Assembly: GCA_910575545.1 (NCBI GenBank)
Contig: CAJTFH010000003.1
Span: 1-64,000, forward strand
Source of the DNA: Bacteroidales bacterium
GTDB taxonomy: Bacteria > Bacteroidota > Bacteroidia > Bacteroidales > Muribaculaceae
DNA: 64,000 bases
Direction: 5' to 3'
Shown: positions 17,786 to 61,276 of the stretch, piece after piece
Position numbering within the stretch: position 1 is the stretch's first letter
Layout: each line of letters begins with the position of its first letter
Notes under the pieces: model-generated
Told to the model about the DNA's origin: nothing
Databases searched by the model: none
Seen by the model: the letters and a program-made list of their open reading frames with translations, nothing else
Program-made: the position numbers and the translations under genes

Positions 17786-17986
17786 GCATCTGTTCGTTAA
17801 CGTATAGACGTTTAAATTCAGATTAATATCTAAATACGTATGCAGTATAAAATAGGTTTTAATCTACGCATTTTAGAATATAGAGGATGTTGCCCCCGTT
17901 ATTTGCCACTAAATTGTAGGGATGCAACACCCACGAAGATATGATTACAAGAGCACTTAATTGTAAGCATAATGTGATGAATGGAG

Positions 17987-18017
17987 AGAGAGGCACTCGT
18001 GAGAGCCCCTCTCTTTT
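17987..18017 (+). terminator. Terminator-like hairpin AGAGAGG...CCTCTCT-TTTT
   Basis: AGAGAGG (17987-17993) can pair with CCTCTCT (18008-18014), followed by T residues. The CCCCTCTCTTTT end is nearly the same as the terminator at 19507-19534, 1.5 kb away, so the two may be related copies flanking the integrase. Confidence 0.5.
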
Positions 18018-18103
18018 CTTGTGTATCAGGGTGAATAATAAATGGTTACGTTGGTAATATAAGACGATGAATCTGCGCACTGAGAACGAGATTTCGTGAA
18101 AAT

Positions 18104-18265: not shown

Positions 18266-19444
18266 ATGCCTAAAATCACGCCAAGGATATTGGCTAATAG
18301 AAAGAAGAAAGACGGAAAACTCGAAATCATGCTCGCTTTGGCTCATAACGGAACTACCCGTTACATAAAATCGGGCATATTCATCGATTCTGCTGATGAA
18401 CTTGCAGAAGGTGTCGTGGTCGGACGTAAAGACGCTCGGATGTTGAATCTGAATTTGAAGCGGATTGTATCTGACCTGCATGGACGCATCGCTGATATTG
18501 AGTATGCCCATGCCCTTACATGCAGCGAACTTGCCCTCAAACTACGGACACATGGGATTGAAGATAACCCGACGCTATCAGTGGTGTTCGCGGAATACAT
18601 GGAAGTATCTTCAATGAAACCGGCCTCCAAAGAACTTTCAATGCAGTTGATTAAGTCCGCAACCGATTTTTTGGGGGCCGACTTCAATCTGCAAAGATTG
18701 TCGTTGAGAGATATAATGCGATATGACGCATATCTGAGACAAAGGAAGAATAAGCCGGCGACAATAGCAAGTAAAGTGTCATTAGTCTCAAAATTGTTCA
18801 CCTATGCGCACAAGCTCGGCTATATACAATGCGATATCTCACCATTTTCCGGCTACAGACCACCGGAGATTATGGTCAGGGAATCATGGCTTTCTACTGA
18901 TGAAATAATCAGATTGCGTGACTTGGAATTACCCAAAGGTATGGCATCTACCATCAGGGATTATATCATCCTTTCATATTACCTCGGAGGCATAAACATG
19001 GTTGACCTGCTTAAGGTGGATTTTGCCGCGTGTCGTCAAACTAAAATGCTCAAATACAGGCGCACTAAAACGGAAGGGCAGAGGAAAGTTAATAAATATG
19101 TCGAGTTTGGGATCCCCGACGAAGCATGGCCGATTATAGACCGTCTTGTCACTTCTGATGGATACTTTGGAACGTCATACCAACGTCAGAATAATATGCA
19201 TTATTATTTTGCACAAGGGATAGGCGCGTTGCGTAAGGCGTCAGGATTGCCGCAGCTGGTGTATTATTCAGCCCGTAAGAGCTTTGCCCAACATGCATTC
19301 CAATTGGGGATCAGCACCGGAATCATAGATTATATTTTGGGTCATAAACTTAACCGTGGCGGTAATACTCTTTACACATATATAATTGTTACACCGGATA
19401 TGGCGACAAATGCAGTTAGGCGAGTGTTGGATAATTTGAAATAA
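18266..19444 (+). CDS. int: Tyrosine recombinase, prophage integrase
   Basis: The 392-residue protein has an N-terminal Arm-binding region (MPKITPRILANRKKKDGKLE), a SAM-like core-binding domain (residues of about 100-195, LRQRKNKPATIASKVSLVSK) and a catalytic domain with YYSARKSFAQHAF, YILGH and the likely nucleophile Tyr in TLYTYI. The usual box I Arg seems absent (LGGINMVDLLKVD), as is known for IntDOT of CTnDOT, and the second Arg motif is ARK rather than ARH. It is the only plus-strand gene besides the 19559 gene in the prophage and marks its left end. Confidence 0.9.
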   Translation: MPKITPRILANRKKKDGKLEIMLALAHNGTTRYIKSGIFIDSADELAEGVVVGRKDARMLNLNLKRIVSDLHGRIADIEYAHALTCSELALKLRTHGIEDNPTLSVVFAEYMEVSSMKPASKELSMQLIKSATDFLGADFNLQRLSLRDIMRYDAYLRQRKNKPATIASKVSLVSKLFTYAHKLGYIQCDISPFSGYRPPEIMVRESWLSTDEIIRLRDLELPKGMASTIRDYIILSYYLGGINMVDLLKVDFAACRQTKMLKYRRTKTEGQRKVNKYVEFGIPDEAWPIIDRLVTSDGYFGTSYQRQNNMHYYFAQGIGALRKASGLPQLVYYSARKSFAQHAFQLGISTGIIDYILGHKLNRGGNTLYTYIIVTPDMATNAVRRVLDNLK

Positions 19445-19457
19445 TGTACTATCTTTG
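19427..19457 (+). promoter_or_regulatory. Promoter of a short plus-strand RNA between int and the alpha-CTD-like gene
   Basis: TTG (19427-19429) is followed by a 20-base spacer and TATCTTTG (19450-19457), a full match to TAnnTTTG. Transcription should start near 19462. It overlaps the last codons of the integrase. Confidence 0.65.
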
Positions 19458-19461
19458 CATT

Positions 19462-19534
19462 AACAATAAGTCCTCTCATTTTAGGTGGCTTATTGGTTTG
19501 ACTTGTGAGAGGGGGTGGTTCCCCTCTCTTTTTT
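19462..19534 (+). ncRNA. Candidate antisense small RNA against phage mRNA leaders
   Basis: A transcript of about 70 bases is predicted between the promoter box at 19450-19457 and a strong terminator ending at 19534. It contains TTATTGGTTTGACTTGT (19490-19506), which occurs in the same plus-strand orientation at 52246-52262 and 61185-61201, as a 16-base copy at 51832-51847, and with one mismatch at 27572-27588. At each of those places a minus-strand gene starts 10-13 bases further on, so the RNA is perfectly complementary to the ribosome-binding region of these mRNAs. Translational repression in trans is the simplest idea. It might instead be only an attenuated leader of the 19559 gene. Confidence 0.5.
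19507..19534 (+). terminator. Strong terminator with a competing antiterminator pairing
   Basis: GAGAGGGG (19507-19514) pairs with CCCCTCTC (19521-19528), followed by TTTTTT. It lies before, not after, the 19559 gene. CCTCTCA at 19472-19478 can instead pair with TGAGAGG at 19506-19512, which would break the terminator stem, and AATAAG (19465-19470) can pair with CTTATT (19489-19494). This allows regulated read-through into the alpha-CTD-like gene. Confidence 0.75.
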
Positions 19535-19558
19535 ATTCTGTTCTAATTTTTATCCAAG

Positions 19559-19831
19559 ATGTATATCACATCAGAACCTGAAGCCCCGTTTGATAAATAC
19601 GATGAGATGCGACTACATATGGAGCAGCTACTCTCGGCATCAATTACTGACTTTGACATTCCCATGAGGATTGCTATCCCTCTTGACGGCGCCGGTGTGA
19701 GGCGTGTTCGGGATCTGGTGCGAATGACGCGTGATGACATTTTCAAGGTTAACAGACTTGGCGAGAAGGCTGCCAACGAGATAGAGAGCATACTTGACAG
19801 ATTCGGTCTTTCTCTCGGAATGGACGTATGA
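19559..19831 (+). CDS. RNA polymerase alpha subunit C-terminal-domain-like protein
   Basis: The 90-residue protein matches the helix-hairpin-helix alpha-CTD of bacterial RpoA over residues of about 30-88: DIPMRIAIPLDGAGVRRVRD corresponds to the IPVRAxNxLKxAxIxTxxDL region, and RLGEKAANEIESILDRFGLS to the GKKSLNEIxxxLxxxGLxLG region. There is no alpha-NTD, so it cannot assemble polymerase. It could bind promoter DNA, a sigma factor or activators and thereby compete with or substitute for host alpha-CTD. It sits on the plus strand next to the integrase behind an attenuator-like terminator, in the position expected of a lysogeny or early regulator. Domain recognition is firm; role is inferred. 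Confidence 0.75.
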   Translation: MYITSEPEAPFDKYDEMRLHMEQLLSASITDFDIPMRIAIPLDGAGVRRVRDLVRMTRDDIFKVNRLGEKAANEIESILDRFGLSLGMDV

Positions 19832-26934: not shown

Positions 26935-27228
26935 TTATGAGAGCATCTTTGAGGGGCATATAACGGCATCTCTGGCGATATAGTCACGCTGGCCGATGGC
27001 CCGGTGCAGATGTGCAATCGCCGTGGCTATCTGATTGCACCCTTTGGTAAATTTGCCCTCTCCATTGACAATTATTATCTGATCATCAGTGAGCCGTACA
27101 ACCTCAATATAGCCGCCGACATACCGCTGTATCTCTTCAAGCTGGAACTCTCTGCCGCTCTTGGGGGCCACTTGGCTTACCCCACACTTTTCAGTGATGA
27201 GGTAAGCATTGGTAGGTAGCAGCTCCAT
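26935..27228 (-). CDS. DUF3846-like protein
   Basis: The 97-residue protein carries REFQLEEIQRYVGGYIEVVR and the IIIVNGEGKFTKGCNQIATA segment and ends with a RDAVICPSKML strand, all matching the DUF3846 pattern of phage and conjugative-element proteins of unknown function. It overlaps the stop of the SH3-fold gene (TGATG), so the two are coupled and both are driven by the phased-repeat promoter at 27606-27686. Confidence 0.65.
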   Translation of the reverse strand: MELLPTNAYLITEKCGVSQVAPKSGREFQLEEIQRYVGGYIEVVRLTDDQIIIVNGEGKFTKGCNQIATAIAHLHRAIGQRDYIARDAVICPSKMLS

Positions 27229-27560
27229 CAGATTGTGCAGATAAGGTTCTCGACTTTGAAACAGCGGAAAGAGTTCTTCTCGGTGTCGAAGTAAGCCATA
27301 GTCTTGTAGGAGGGCTTGGTCACTTTCTTGCCGCCGAGGGTGGCACCGGCGGGCACATTTTTGAGAGTGCCCATGGCCTTGCGGATAGAGCCGTCAGCTT
27401 TGGTGTAGTAGAATGTTACCACACCCTCGCGCATGGCTTTCGCGAGGCGGTAGAGCTGCCACGCTTTTATCATGCAGATGCGCCATGTCTGCTTGGTGGC
27501 TTTCCAGAGTTGCCATGCATACTTCATCACTCTCACGCGGAAATTGTTCTTCTTTTCCAT
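27228..27560 (-). CDS. SH3 beta-barrel fold protein (DUF2693-like)
   Basis: The 110-residue protein has a basic, Trp-rich N-terminus (RVMKYAWQLWKATKQTWRIC) followed by VTFYYTKADGSIRKAMGTLK and AYFDTEKNSFRCFKVENLI, the signature of SH3 beta-barrel fold (DUF2693) proteins frequent in Bacteroidales mobile elements. The role is unknown; the basic face suggests nucleic acid contact. It is the first gene after one of the four repeated phage promoters and carries the shared leader 11 bases before its ATG. Confidence 0.7.
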   Translation of the reverse strand: MEKKNNFRVRVMKYAWQLWKATKQTWRICMIKAWQLYRLAKAMREGVVTFYYTKADGSIRKAMGTLKNVPAGATLGGKKVTKPSYKTMAYFDTEKNSFRCFKVENLICTI

Positions 27561-27571
27561 AATTAAGGGGT

Positions 27572-27686
27572 TTAATGGTTTGACTTGTAGTTTTTTATTA
27601 TGTTGTAAAGTTAGCCGTTATTTACGATAGACACAAACAGAATGACCACCATTTTACGTCTGATTACCACCATTTTACCACCTTAA
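27572..27686 (-). promoter_or_regulatory. Phage regulon promoter A with leader and phased operators
   Basis: On the minus strand TTTG (27634-27637), a 20-base spacer and TAACTTTA (27606-27613) form the promoter. Upstream are ACCACCATTTTA copies (plus-strand orientation) at 27645-27656 and 27666-27677, 21 bases apart, and a related ACCACCTTAA at 27677-27686. The downstream leader contains TTAATGGTTTGACTTGT (plus strand, 27572-27588). Three other promoters in the prophage have the same plan. The -7 box ends in TTTA rather than the host TTTG, as expected for an activator-dependent promoter. Confidence 0.75.
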
Positions 27687-27700
27687 CATTTACTGACATT

Positions 27701-51490: not shown

Positions 51491-51820
51491 TTAAAACCAC
51501 CTTAGTACGATGTAACTATTGGATTGGTCACTCTTGGCAATCAGCTCATTGAAGATTTCAACAAAATCCTCCAGAGTGTAATCCCAGCCTTTCGAGGTAA
51601 GATAATCTTCGTACTCCTTAGGATTGTTCTTTATCTCCTGGACCAATTTGACGAGGTCTTCACGTTCAATCTCTAACCGGTCCGAGCACTCGGGCGTTAT
51701 CTCATTGTAAGAGGCGTCACATTTGTCAACCAGCAACTCATTTATTTCAGTTTTGTGGTTGAAATAGCCGCCATCGTATTTGACACGATAGGTGGTGGCG
51801 TAATGTAATCTGTATCCCAT
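51491..51820 (-). CDS. Hypothetical phage protein with regulon leader
   Basis: From ATG 51820 the protein is 109 residues (MGYRLHYATTYRVKYDGGYF, YEDYLTSKGWDYTLEDFVEI). The start is fixed by the shared leader TTATTGGTTTGACTTG at 51832-51847, 11 bases upstream, as in the other regulon genes; the longer open frame would run through the leader. It follows the acidic gene by 28 bases. Confidence 0.6.
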   Translation of the reverse strand: MGYRLHYATTYRVKYDGGYFNHKTEINELLVDKCDASYNEITPECSDRLEIEREDLVKLVQEIKNNPKEYEDYLTSKGWDYTLEDFVEIFNELIAKSDQSNSYIVLRWF

Positions 51821-51831
51821 ATATTTACGGT

Positions 51832-51847
51832 TTATTGGTTTGACTTG
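51832..51847 (-). repeat. Internal copy of the shared mRNA leader
   Basis: The plus-strand text TTATTGGTTTGACTTG repeats the leader of promoters B and C, here inside the operon without its own -7/-33 boxes. It points to a translational rather than transcriptional role for the leader, and it is one target of the candidate small RNA at 19462-19534. Confidence 0.65.
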
Positions 51848-51848
51848 G

Positions 51849-52232
51849 TTATGCAATATCTTCGAGTTCCTTATCAATAGCGCTCCAAAGGTCTTTGAGG
51901 TCATCTTCCTCAAACTCGGACTCTTCGTCGGTGTCATCATCGTAGTGAGATACGAGGATTTCTGTTACCTCACCCCATGCTTTCCGGAGATCGCTGCTCG
52001 GTGGTGTCCAGTAATCGCCGGGGTCATTGTCCCACTCTCCACAGCACTCATACGTTACTTCGATGAGCCAACCATCTTCCTCATAGCAGAAGTAGTTAGT
52101 GGCAGATTCATGGCAAACACCCCAACCATCTTCACCTTGCTCATAGTAGGAGGCGCCGATTTCGTGGTCTTGGCTTGTGAGCAGGTCCACGAGGGTGGGA
52201 ATAAGGGCGTCGAGGTCAGCTTTCGTTTTCAT
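51849..52232 (-). CDS. Acidic hypothetical protein heading the promoter B operon
   Basis: The 127-residue protein is very acidic at its end (YDDDTDEESEFEEDDLKDLW) and has aromatic beta segments (GWLIEVTYECCGEWDNDPGD). Such acidic phage proteins sometimes mimic DNA, but no family is recognised. It is the first gene after promoter B, and the leader lies 13 bases before its ATG. Confidence 0.55.
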   Translation of the reverse strand: MKTKADLDALIPTLVDLLTSQDHEIGASYYEQGEDGWGVCHESATNYFCYEEDGWLIEVTYECCGEWDNDPGDYWTPPSSDLRKAWGEVTEILVSHYDDDTDEESEFEEDDLKDLWSAIDKELEDIA

Positions 52233-52245
52233 ATCTCTTGGTGGT

Positions 52246-52336
52246 TTATTGGTTTGACTTGTAGTTTGTTATACTGTAAAGTTAGCCATAAAAAGCAGAT
52301 TTTGCAATCAGAATAGCCACCATTTTACCACCTTAA
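52246..52336 (-). promoter_or_regulatory. Phage regulon promoter B with leader and phased operators
   Basis: Minus-strand TTG (52305-52307), a 20-base spacer and TAACTTTA (52277-52284). Operator copies on the plus strand: CCACCATTTTA at 52317-52327 and ACCACCTTAA at 52327-52336, 10 bases apart. Leader TTATTGGTTTGACTTGT at 52246-52262. It drives the long operon ending near 46859. Confidence 0.75.
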
Positions 52337-52379
52337 CGTTTGTCAATTAGTGTCAAGACTTGGAGCCCTCGGCGGCATC

Positions 52380-54029: not shown

Positions 54030-54059
54030 AACTCGCTATTATGGTTTGTTTTACATCAG

Positions 54060-54121
54060 TAAATTTAGCCAAAAATGACGAATTACACAAACAGATTGAA
54101 CACCATTTTAACGCCATTTTA
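54060..54121 (-). promoter_or_regulatory. Phage regulon promoter D with phased operators
   Basis: Minus-strand TTTG (54088-54091), a 20-base spacer and TAAATTTA (54060-54067). Operator copies on the plus strand: AACACCATTTTA at 54099-54110 and ACGCCATTTTA at 54111-54121, about one helical turn apart. The shared leader is only partly present (ATGGTTTG). It drives the RarA-C-like and tad2-like genes. Confidence 0.7.
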
Positions 54122-58839: not shown

Positions 58840-59421
58840 TTACTCGATTACCCGGATTCCGTATTTCCGGACATTGGCTTCTACTTTGGGAGAGCGTTGG
58901 GTGTGGGCGACAACATAGGCCTCACTGCCGCCTCTGGCGATTTGATAGCCATGCTGCCGGAGTTCGTAACGGTATTGGCATTTCTTGGGATTGCCATACA
59001 ACTTCAACTTCGTGCGCTGCTCAAACCCCCACAATATCCGGGAGCGTTCTCTCTTGATGGTGGCGCGTCTGGACTCGGCAGACTTTCGCAGCCTCTCTGC
59101 GTCTTTCTTGGCTCCGAGCCGTTGACGGCATGAAACTCCGGGCTTGAATTGCCCTGCCTCGCTATTGGGGATTTTGAAACCTTTAGGCGGATAGGTGCCG
59201 TTACGTTGGTGGGAGATTTTCGCAGCCTCGGCGGTTTCGTGTTGACACTTGGCCATGAACTGACGGCTTTTTGTAAGCCCCATCGCTCGTGCAAGCCTGA
59301 CCACTGAACGAGGAGAGATACCTAACCTCTCGGCACACTCGCTGTTTTGGGTGTGCTTGAAATGATTGGTCAGCCATCTCTCCTGTTTAGGTGTAAGGAC
59401 AATTTTTTCAGTCTTGCCCAT
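58840..59421 (-). CDS. Helix-turn-helix phage protein, possibly HNH-related
   Basis: From ATG 59421 the protein is 193 residues: TPKQERWLTNHFKHTQNSEC then AERLGISPRSVVRLARAMGL form a helix-turn-helix. The middle is basic with KGFKIPNSEAGQFKPGVSCR and RLRKSAESRRATIKRERSRI, and the end is also basic (NPKKCQYRYELRQHGYQIAR). No HNH catalytic set is complete. The ATG overlaps the ParB stop, so both are co-translated. A DNA-binding regulator is likely. Confidence 0.6.
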   Translation of the reverse strand: MGKTEKIVLTPKQERWLTNHFKHTQNSECAERLGISPRSVVRLARAMGLTKSRQFMAKCQHETAEAAKISHQRNGTYPPKGFKIPNSEAGQFKPGVSCRQRLGAKKDAERLRKSAESRRATIKRERSRILWGFEQRTKLKLYGNPKKCQYRYELRQHGYQIARGGSEAYVVAHTQRSPKVEANVRKYGIRVIE

Positions 59422-61174
59422 TGCTTGCTGGGAGTTTATTGCCCTCAAGGTCGTAGCCAAGTTTCTTCAGTTGGTTGGCAATCTTTTTAACCGCCTTTTC
59501 GTGTTTCTCCTTGACTTTATCCATAGCCTCATGGTACTCGGTAGGACACCATAGCTCGCCGATTCGTTCAACGTAAGGCTCGGCGACACTTCTTGCCTCG
59601 TTGAGTGTGATTATTTGGGTGCCTGTATAGAGAGCCTTTTTTATCCATGCCCGCAAAATGAATGGGGCTTTGTCAAGATTGTTGGCAACATACTGCCGAA
59701 TCTCTTCATGCTTTGGAGCGGCACCAAGACCTAAGGCCAAGCAAAGCTCTTGGTTGTTTTTTACCATTAGAGAATAGGCAACTATGAACTCGGCATTATC
59801 AAGGCCGGTGCGATTCTTGAACTCGCCATGCTCGGCAATAGCTTTGCAGCCGCCTACGGTATAGCTTGTCGGAAGTGTTGTGTTGAGGTACTTATACTCT
59901 CGGAGCAGTTCGTTTACTTTCATCGGTCGGCCACTCTCATCGCTGTTGGTTGAGGTGTCATCTTTTCTTGGATAGTAGAACGATTCCGTCAGTGTTGGCA
60001 TATCATAGCCGTCGAGAACAAGAACCCGATAGATTTCTCCAGCAGTGAGCATATTGGCAATGCGCTCATCGTCGGCCGTATACCAGCACTTGCGGTCAAA
60101 GGCTCTTGCCGGATTTACAATTTCATAGCCTCTGCGCTCTATCTCGGCGATGAATGATTGCTTTACAGCCTTTGCCGCCTCGGAGCAGTATGGGTCCGGT
60201 TCTGCTCCTATCACAATCTTGCCGAATGTGAGAGGTGAGCCTTTGGGGACAAGGTCGGCGGCGTAGCCATCAACCGTTTTGATCATGTAGGCCAGCAGCT
60301 TTGACTGGAATTTGGCGCGGTTGGTACAGCGGCCTGCGTCTTGGCTCTTCATTTCCCAGAACAGGCAACCATGATTGGCGGTGTTGAGTTGACATTCGGA
60401 GCATTTGCTTTCACAGCCACCCTCAAAATCCTCGTCTGATTGGTCGTCGCTCTGATACCAGGGAGATTTGGAGAGAGTCATGAACAGGCCATTGACAAAA
60501 CTCTCTGCCGTTGCTTTGGTCAGCCCTTGATAGTTGTTGCTATACTGCGAGTGATATTTTTTCTGCATATCCTCGTCAAGTTTGCAGATAATCATCGCGG
60601 CGGCTATGCTCATTTTGTCCTCTTTGACAGCTACGACAAGTTCGGGAATGAGGGTGTTGAGTTTGCATCGGTCTTGGATAAAACGAATGCTCTTGCCGAA
60701 TTTGAGCGCCACTTCTTCGGCGGTCTTACCCTTCTCGATAAGCTGGCCGAAAGCGAAAGCCTCTTCCATCGGGTCCACGTCTTGACGCTGGAGGTTCTCG
60801 GTAATCATGGCCTCGAAAGCCTCATCATCGTTCATCTCTCGTACCATTGCTGGAATGGACTGGAAACGGTCACTCTTTATGCGATGGGCTGCCACCTGCT
60901 CTACGTTGAGTGCGTCTTCCTTAGCTTTGAGCAGACAGTAAGCGCGATAGCGACGCTCACCGCAAACGATTTCGTAGCCGATGGGTATGCTGACAATCTC
61001 GCCGGAATTGTCGAGCTGATCATCATACTCACAGGGGCGCACCGTGATGGGCTGAATTAGACCCTGCTTTTCGATGTTGGCGGCAAGTTCCCTGACCGCC
61101 TCCTCATCGAATGTCTTTCGGGGATTCATCGGTGATGGTTTCACCGAGTCTAATGGAATTTTCTGAAAGTCCAT
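59408..61174 (-). CDS. ParB family DNA-binding protein
   Basis: The 588-residue protein has a classical ParB N-terminal domain: PLDSVKPSPMNPRKTFDEEA, GYEIVCGERRYRAYCLLKAK (GERRxRA CTP-binding motif) and MITENLQRQDVDPMEEAFAF, followed by a helix-turn-helix (GKTAEEVALKFGKSIRFIQD). Residues of about 240-290 hold a Cys cluster (CESKCSECQLNTANHGCLFW). The C-terminal 250 residues are of unknown fold. It probably binds phage DNA for replication, transcription or partition. It is the first gene after promoter C with the leader 10 bases before its ATG. Confidence 0.82.
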   Translation of the reverse strand: MDFQKIPLDSVKPSPMNPRKTFDEEAVRELAANIEKQGLIQPITVRPCEYDDQLDNSGEIVSIPIGYEIVCGERRYRAYCLLKAKEDALNVEQVAAHRIKSDRFQSIPAMVREMNDDEAFEAMITENLQRQDVDPMEEAFAFGQLIEKGKTAEEVALKFGKSIRFIQDRCKLNTLIPELVVAVKEDKMSIAAAMIICKLDEDMQKKYHSQYSNNYQGLTKATAESFVNGLFMTLSKSPWYQSDDQSDEDFEGGCESKCSECQLNTANHGCLFWEMKSQDAGRCTNRAKFQSKLLAYMIKTVDGYAADLVPKGSPLTFGKIVIGAEPDPYCSEAAKAVKQSFIAEIERRGYEIVNPARAFDRKCWYTADDERIANMLTAGEIYRVLVLDGYDMPTLTESFYYPRKDDTSTNSDESGRPMKVNELLREYKYLNTTLPTSYTVGGCKAIAEHGEFKNRTGLDNAEFIVAYSLMVKNNQELCLALGLGAAPKHEEIRQYVANNLDKAPFILRAWIKKALYTGTQIITLNEARSVAEPYVERIGELWCPTEYHEAMDKVKEKHEKAVKKIANQLKKLGYDLEGNKLPASNGQD

Positions 61175-61184
61175 AAATAAGGGT

Positions 61185-61276
61185 TTATTGGTTTGACTTG
61201 TAGTTTGTTATACTGTAAAGTTAGTCGTATTTTACGGAAGTTGCAAACAGAATGACCACCATTTTTACACCATTTT
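61185..61276 (-). promoter_or_regulatory. Phage regulon promoter C with leader and phased operators
   Basis: Minus-strand TTTG (61244-61247), a 20-base spacer and TAACTTTA (61216-61223). Operator copies on the plus strand: ACCACCATTTTTA at 61255-61267 and ACACCATTTT at 61267-61276. Leader TTATTGGTTTGACTTGT at 61185-61201. It overlaps the stop of the upstream 61276 gene. Confidence 0.75.

Follow-up and report, generated by a model that had tools for sequence, protein, structure and literature searches.

Recurrence of a small RNA and its matching leader motifs suggests an RNA lock in Bacteroidales prophages

A prophage with a predicted small RNA beside its integrase

The window analysed here is a stretch of 64,000 nucleotides at the start of a Muribaculaceae contig; positions beyond its end are given as contig positions. 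A prophage of ~62.9 kb is enclosed by 64-nt att repeats, with attL at 17962–18025 and the second copy, attR, at contig 80839–80902. A tyrosine integrase gene (18266–19444, plus strand; phrog_1, E 1.4e-19) ends 48 nt before the seed of a predicted small RNA of 74 nt (19462–19535, plus strand). No phage record was similar to the integrase region of the window. The RNA comprises a 5' hairpin, the unpaired GUUUGACUUGU and then a terminator. Upstream, the sequence TATCTTTG (19450–19457, plus strand) is what we take to be the −7 box of a Bacteroidales-type promoter. The 12-nt seed, TTGGTTTGACTT (19493–19504, plus strand), is complementary to a leader motif of several phage genes. The unpaired UUUGACUU is part of this seed; the motif that the seed complements is AAGTCAAACCAA. 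The terminator stem (19507–19528, plus strand) is directly followed by T6, and its 5' arm covaries across phages with a further site, D, described below. Folding of the window RNA gave −28 kcal/mol (z −3.9). Judged by sequence and predicted folds, the RNA has its own promoter, an intrinsic terminator and an accessible seed, as expected of a trans-encoded base-pairing sRNA.

We rejected a known Rfam family as the identity of the RNA. No family reached the cut-off in the window; the c4 model was not matched, and L20_leader gave a sub-threshold match at the small RNA. The terminator loop contains GGTGGTTCC (~19513–19521), which recurs in very different stems and could possibly be a protein site or a second seed.

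Downstream of the RNA is an ORF resembling the RNA polymerase αCTD (19559–19831, plus strand; PF03118, E 1.7e-10). By our reading of the sequence, it starts ~24 nt past the terminator T-run with no space for a separate promoter. Hence, it is probably expressed by read-through. The search with the αCTD returned four loci. Further along the prophage, a repressor-like ORF (contig 73192–73545, plus strand) has an HTH match below the Pfam cut-off. The small RNA gene is on the strand of the integrase and this repressor-like gene. Between the latter and attR is a block of plus-strand ORFs (contig 73551–80631; L009:9551–16631). Four of these ORFs were compared with Pfam, and two of the four with PHROGs, with no match.

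A pattern combining the seed with the terminator loop was found in 39 stretches of viral contigs and 36 of genome contigs. Homologues of the small RNA occur in Bacteroides, Phocaeicola, Muribaculaceae, Prevotellaceae and other genomes. Most of the RNAs came from search patterns that demanded both the seed and GGTGGTTCC, so the invariance of these two elements in 38 aligned RNAs follows from the search (for the seed, partly by construction). In the alignment, both sides have changed in 9 of the 15 consensus pairs. The predicted folds of the 38 RNAs leave UUUGACUU mostly unpaired; exceptions are, for example, L074, L140 and part of L113, L118 and L126. A seed-free pattern of promoter and loop matched 13 stretches, all of which keep the seed and all of which had previously been found via the seed. 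With a covariance model, matches came from 23 of 297 family genomes, and the strong loci had nearly all been found already by the seed pattern. The window RNA scores 75.7 bits against this model, which was built with the window RNA included. One new locus, L315, keeps the seed and has a terminator loop that differs from GGTGGTTCC. The match L306 shows no seed owing to its position close to a contig end; this RNA was also found as L132, where the seed is present. Two weak matches to the model (L312 and L313) look like chance, as does L146, from a Chloroflexi bin.

The surroundings of the RNA also recur. A Bacteroidales-type promoter box lies upstream of 43 of the 45 homologues listed. At 32 of the 40 loci examined, an ORF of at least 150 aa ends 20–400 nt upstream of the RNA, and the phrog_1 integrase was matched by 30 of 32 ORFs upstream of homologous RNAs. 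A domain scan took in 27 of 29 downstream ORFs and found an αCTD domain in 14 of the 27. The RNA and the leader motifs are both present in Phocaeicola vulgatus ATCC 8482 and Bacteroides xylanisolvens XB1A. In the former, where the RNA lies near 3582038 of NC_009614, an integrase ends ~860 nt upstream, and the prophage is presumably BV01, given the host and position. BS-TP3, a phage in culture, is similar to the P. vulgatus prophage over 155 bases at the integrase; its 57.5 kb hold no copy of the motif at up to one mismatch.

A leader motif shared by phage genes

The 17-mer TTATTGGTTTGACTTGT is found exactly at 19490, 52246 and 61185, and with one mismatch (16/17) at 27572 and 51832. With up to three mismatches, the window contains five matches against 0.31 expected, and none of 100 shuffles reached five. 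Start codons lie 10–13 nt beyond the copies. These copies, the minus-strand genes starting just past them and the promoter box and terminator of the RNA had all been listed in a first-pass annotation. Each was recovered, the 17-mer in numbers beyond chance. A sixth copy is at contig 68800, beyond the window. Allowing two mismatches, the 3.27-Mb genome has eight matches, six of them within the prophage (the RNA itself included); a reversed control gave three.

Each leader copy is on the minus strand. The copy at 27575–27586, with one mismatch, precedes the gene for a 110-aa WYL_2/Sm-like SH3 barrel protein (27228–27560, minus strand; PF10902, E 1.2e-25). That at 51835–51846 is located between two genes, without a promoter, and precedes the gene at 51491–51820. 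The copy at 52249–52260 precedes the gene at 51849–52232 and has a TAACTTTA promoter box upstream. The copy at 61188–61199 is before the gene for a 588-aa ParB-like protein (59408–61174, minus strand), and here we read the TAACTTTA box at 61216–61223 on the minus strand. Searches by tblastn with the ParB-like and Sm-like proteins gave matches that were all below 60% identity. A long block, AAAATGGTGG..ATTCTG, upstream of the −33 region is common to several phage-gene promoters (27594–27691, 52265–52341, 54048–54109 and 61204–61271, minus strand) and is probably an operator or activator site. At 54048 the block is present and the leader motif is absent.

In cofolding, the five window leaders paired with the RNA at −17.4 to −23.8 kcal/mol; shuffled sequences gave about −5. 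We ranked 1068 ATG contexts, from the window and the next 20 kb, and the five leaders were among the top six. The other, fourth best of the 1068, is a one-mismatch motif before a 65-aa ORF at contig 74955 (L009:10955, minus strand), perhaps a further target within the prophage. The small RNA is complementary to the start regions of at least two unlinked mRNAs, another property of a trans-encoded sRNA.

We also counted the motif in related phages. Across 22 phage sets there were 107 exact 12-mers outside the RNA against 0.26 expected, an excess inflated because the sets were partly chosen after motif positions were known (12 of the 22 virus records among them). The 22 sets are 25 minus near copies, namely G104 (of G109) and G132 and G146 (of G128); G119 and the G122 stretch were chosen for the motif and contain no RNA. 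A less selected sample is provided by 22 whole virus records, 20 chosen for the RNA and two for the motif. These have 90 exact 12-mers, the RNA's own included, against one for the reversed pattern. Further exact motifs were present in 15 of the 20 RNA-bearing records and absent from five, including G112, which is 60 kb long. In G141 (B. fragilis) there was no motif in the 60 kb fetched. We do not rely on a count of 24 of 30 genomes with the motif and an ATG; part of its entries are the complement of the RNA itself, and two pairs, G020/G131 and G054/G137, each stand for one contig.

An ORF of at least 40 aa starts with ATG 4–29 nt downstream of 92 of the 107 motifs, compared with 8382 of 54000 random positions (15.5%). 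Could the motif be a DNA site, such as an operator, packaging or recombination signal, that the RNA gene simply overlaps in one copy? A strand bias would suit such a site, and 92 of 95 copies, in sets containing an RNA, are on the strand opposite the RNA. So would the TAnnTTTN box found 10–45 nt upstream of 50 of the 92 start-linked copies. Against this, the distance to the ATG is 9–18 nt in 89 of these 92 copies, and 42 have no such box; the motif is found inside operons as well as behind promoters. The copy in the RNA is also antisense and placed between the 5' hairpin and a terminator with compensating changes, and D follows its own terminator arm. We consider a DNA site very improbable. 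A promoter-cassette repeat was ruled out by the 42 sites without a box together with the copy at 51832, which has no promoter and is intergenic; hence the repeat is not merely part of such a cassette. An att site or integrase core was ruled out as well, the att repeat being a different sequence.

The genes behind the motif are diverse. With one-mismatch sites included, and with G141 and G122 left out in addition, 111 target ORFs fell into ParB-like, Sm-like and annealase groups plus many small groups and singletons. Targets belong to the ParB-like group in 17 phage sets, and to the WYL_2/Sm-like group and an ERF/Rad52-type annealase group in 16 each. Among scanned members of the annealase group, four matched ERF and one Rad52_Rad22 in Pfam; the window's own member had no Pfam match. 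As so many different groups carry the motif, unrelated genes have gained the same sequence. By these family matches, the predicted functions of the targets are replication and recombination.

Bases flanking the motif follow the RNA of the same phage. At ordinary leaders, position +1 agrees with the phage's own RNA at 0.60 against 0.33 (4 of 50000 permutations), or 0.54 with exact cores only (39 of 50000). Positions −5 and −6 likewise follow their own RNA; positions +2 and +3 do not. In relatives, then, the motif is kept before start codons and its flanks track the RNA; the loss of complementarity that the first-pass annotation had named as refuting its reading was not seen. An alternative is that the phage uses the motif to enhance translation initiation, with the ribosome or a phage protein recognising it and the RNA a later antagonist. 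The leaders are A-rich with a nearly fixed distance to the AUG, and Bacteroidota rarely use Shine-Dalgarno pairing, all of which would fit. An enhancer leaves the tracking flanks and the existence of D unexplained, and we regard it as improbable, though less so than a DNA site.

We also considered that the RNA pairs with the leaders and activates or stabilises phage mRNAs, as a lytic helper. The same pairing evidence applies to this reading. Its difficulties are that the leaders have no predicted strong inhibitory structure, that the RNA gene is on the strand of the integrase and repressor-like gene, and that the motif falls within the expected ribosome footprint. Across 91 leaders the motif core is 0.70 unpaired, compared with 0.60 in shuffled sequences. 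Such fairly open leaders, as modelled, would be the sole pointer to repression rather than activation. A lytic helper thus seems unlikely to us, and only slightly less so than an enhancer.

Site D beside the repressor-like gene

In the window's phage, site D is at contig 72336 (minus strand), and its core match is of a different kind from those of the leaders. A second small RNA at this position was ruled out; the sequence shows a site that follows a stop codon and has the same strand as the leaders. An early promoter box, TACCTTTG, at contig 73107 (minus strand) is divergent from the repressor-like ORF and leads into two small ORFs and D. The promoter box for the D transcript was sought in this phage only. 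In 15 phages, D starts within ~30 nt past an ORF stop (coordinates compared by eye), after the first lytic-strand ORFs and beside a divergent repressor-like gene. The repressor-like ORFs, one BLAST group, are on the strand opposite D in all 15. All 10 that were scanned had an HTH match at E ≤ 0.05, four of them above the Pfam cut-off. Because of the divergent repressor-like gene and early promoter beside it, D appears to be within an immediate-early lytic transcript. Seven further phage sets, with incomplete stretches, gave no convincing D.

An array of short G+C hairpins follows D at contig 72180–72340 (L009:8180–8340, minus strand), as it does in several relatives. ARAGORN found tRNA genes in six of the 12 D stretches scanned: in G103 and G108 they come immediately behind D, and in four more they are within ~2 kb of it. 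The D stretch of the window's phage gave none. Several of the tRNAs after D have anticodons that ARAGORN cannot name.

The 5' flank of D approximates the complement of its own RNA's terminator 5' arm, despite differences between the arms of different phages (GGCGG, GGTGAG, CGGAG, CGGCG, GGCC, GGCAAG and TCGAGG). We scored all sites of each phage against the arm, with no preselected list of cores. With up to one mismatch (18 phages, 135 sites), the best own site scored 11.42 against 7.37 (sd 0.64) in permutations. With exact cores (18 phages, 94 sites), the values were 10.36 and 6.12 (sd 0.59). None of 100000 permutations reached the observed value in either case; the phages are related, so these are not true probabilities. 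In the one-mismatch comparison, the best site scored at least 10.5 in 14 of the 18 phages and was D in 13 of the 14; that of G108 was a neighbouring leader. Own D–RNA pairs also outscored those with the three nearest relatives, by ParB-like protein, in 11 of 14 cases (Wilcoxon p 0.0017). For this comparison and for cofolding, D sites were picked by eye, and that of G136 has two mismatches.

In cofolds for 15 phages, D made at least six pairs with the terminator arm in 11 and just one in the other four, the window's phage included. The mean was 6.8 pairs for D and 1.0 for leaders, which pair into the 5' hairpin of the RNA rather than the terminator arm. Mean energies were −13.6 kcal/mol for D and −16.9 kcal/mol for leaders (15 phages; 79 leaders). 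D thus has no advantage in net energy, an argument against a simple decoy. D has the seed complementarity and covariation expected of a sponge, weakly so for the window's own D in the pairing model. A comparable sponge is the 3'ETS of leuZ, a fragment of a tRNA transcript by which an sRNA is titrated. D would likewise titrate an sRNA from a tRNA-bearing transcript; unlike the 3'ETS, it is phage-borne and reaches into the terminator in most phages modelled.

This reach raises the possibility that D is no decoy. It could be an antiterminator, opening the terminator into the αCTD-like gene, or the target of the RNA on the early transcript. The arm pairing in 11 of 15 modelled phages, with the leaders at a mean of 1.0, and the start of the αCTD-like ORF so soon after the T-run are both in keeping with such roles. 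Conversely, the four phages with a single arm pair, the window's among them, do not fit, the αCTD ORF is present in only 14 of 27 cases, and action in trans on a nascent RNA would be kinetically hard. We hold this alternative to be unlikely, and well ahead of a DNA site, an enhancer or a lytic helper.

A proposed RNA lock and its relation to known phage RNAs

Sequence comparison gives strong support to a trans-acting RNA that pairs with multiple phage leaders. It shows the architecture of the RNA, its complementarity and recurrence, the position of the motifs ahead of start codons, the covariation of D and the place of D beside the repressor-like gene. The first-pass annotation had proposed a lysogeny switch in which an RNA silences the lytic regulon. 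Of this, the trans-acting pairing is the part with strong sequence support. Expression of the RNA, repression, ribosome blocking and a role in lysogeny are suggested by anatomy, as is the decoy role of D.

We propose the following. Next to the integrase, a dedicated promoter of constitutive type would give the prophage a short antisense RNA that acts in trans. Open between the 5' hairpin and the terminator, UUUGACUU would form the first pairs with AAGUCAAACCAA, 9–18 nt before the AUG in the leaders of genes for replication and recombination. Pairing would extend into the 5' hairpin and block ribosome entry, so that leaky or read-through lytic mRNAs would stay untranslated in the lysogen. Upon induction, the repressor-controlled early transcript would bring D, a complement of the seed and, in the majority of phages examined, also of the terminator 5' arm. 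D would take up the RNA and free the leaders. The phage would thus have a double lock, with a protein repressor on the early promoter and the RNA on translation of replication and recombination genes.

The recurrence of the RNA and motifs in related prophages suggests that dormancy of the phage is maintained by an RNA lock. We consider it probable that the RNA locks the replication genes and that the early transcript captures it through D on induction. More tentative, and less likely than not in our judgement, is a two-RNA lysogeny switch across Bacteroidales temperate phages in which the antisense RNA holds the entire replication regulon untranslated until D captures it and also opens its terminator, so that the αCTD-like gene is read through. 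If so, opening of the terminator would end production of the short RNA. Since the homologues found share one seed, a prophage with such a switch could also silence incoming relatives. Changes to a seed on which multiple targets depend should be difficult.

Phage antisense RNAs (c4, sar and OOP) and trans-acting phage RNAs (VpdS, PreS and 24B_1) have been described, according to the parts of the review consulted (PMC12197685). The c4 RNA is RF01695 (PMC2864571). In P1/P7 and P22, respectively, c4 and sar act on the ant gene; the likeness is an antisense block of a lytic-side translation start that aids lysogeny or immunity, a feature of c4 and sar and proposed here. The differences are the several unlinked leaders, the gene beside the integrase and the covarying early site (PMC12197685). 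VpdS (phage VP882), PreS (lambda) and 24B_1 are described as Hfq-linked. Their targets are phage and host mRNAs for VpdS, host dnaN for PreS and one antirepressor gene for 24B_1. The RNA described here resembles them as a small trans-acting phage RNA tied to replication or the lysis–lysogeny choice and differs from those accounts in that one leader motif is common to several lytic genes (PMC12197685). The svsR RNA of prophage NC-SV lowers host maltodextrin transport genes, including a phage receptor, and its authors' BLAST gave no base-pairing match in the account consulted. It too is a widely conserved small RNA encoded by a prophage at a lysogeny gene (PMC12803456).

The main text of the review does not contain the word Bacteroides (PMC12197685). 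Elsewhere, 28 candidate RNAs close to integrase, sortase or phage domains are reported, and our small RNA could be among them (PMC8040213). Phage antisense RNAs are known; in the literature searched, much of it as excerpts, we found no description of one that has multiple targets and an early partner covarying with it.

Lysogeny control in Bacteroidales gut phages is poorly known. Here, sequence yields an RNA regulon whose target families can be named and whose partner covaries, and cultured hosts allow it to be tested. Bacteroidales hosts are not known to have Hfq. The Sm-like phage protein belongs to the most frequent targets and is a natural candidate for a partner of the RNA.
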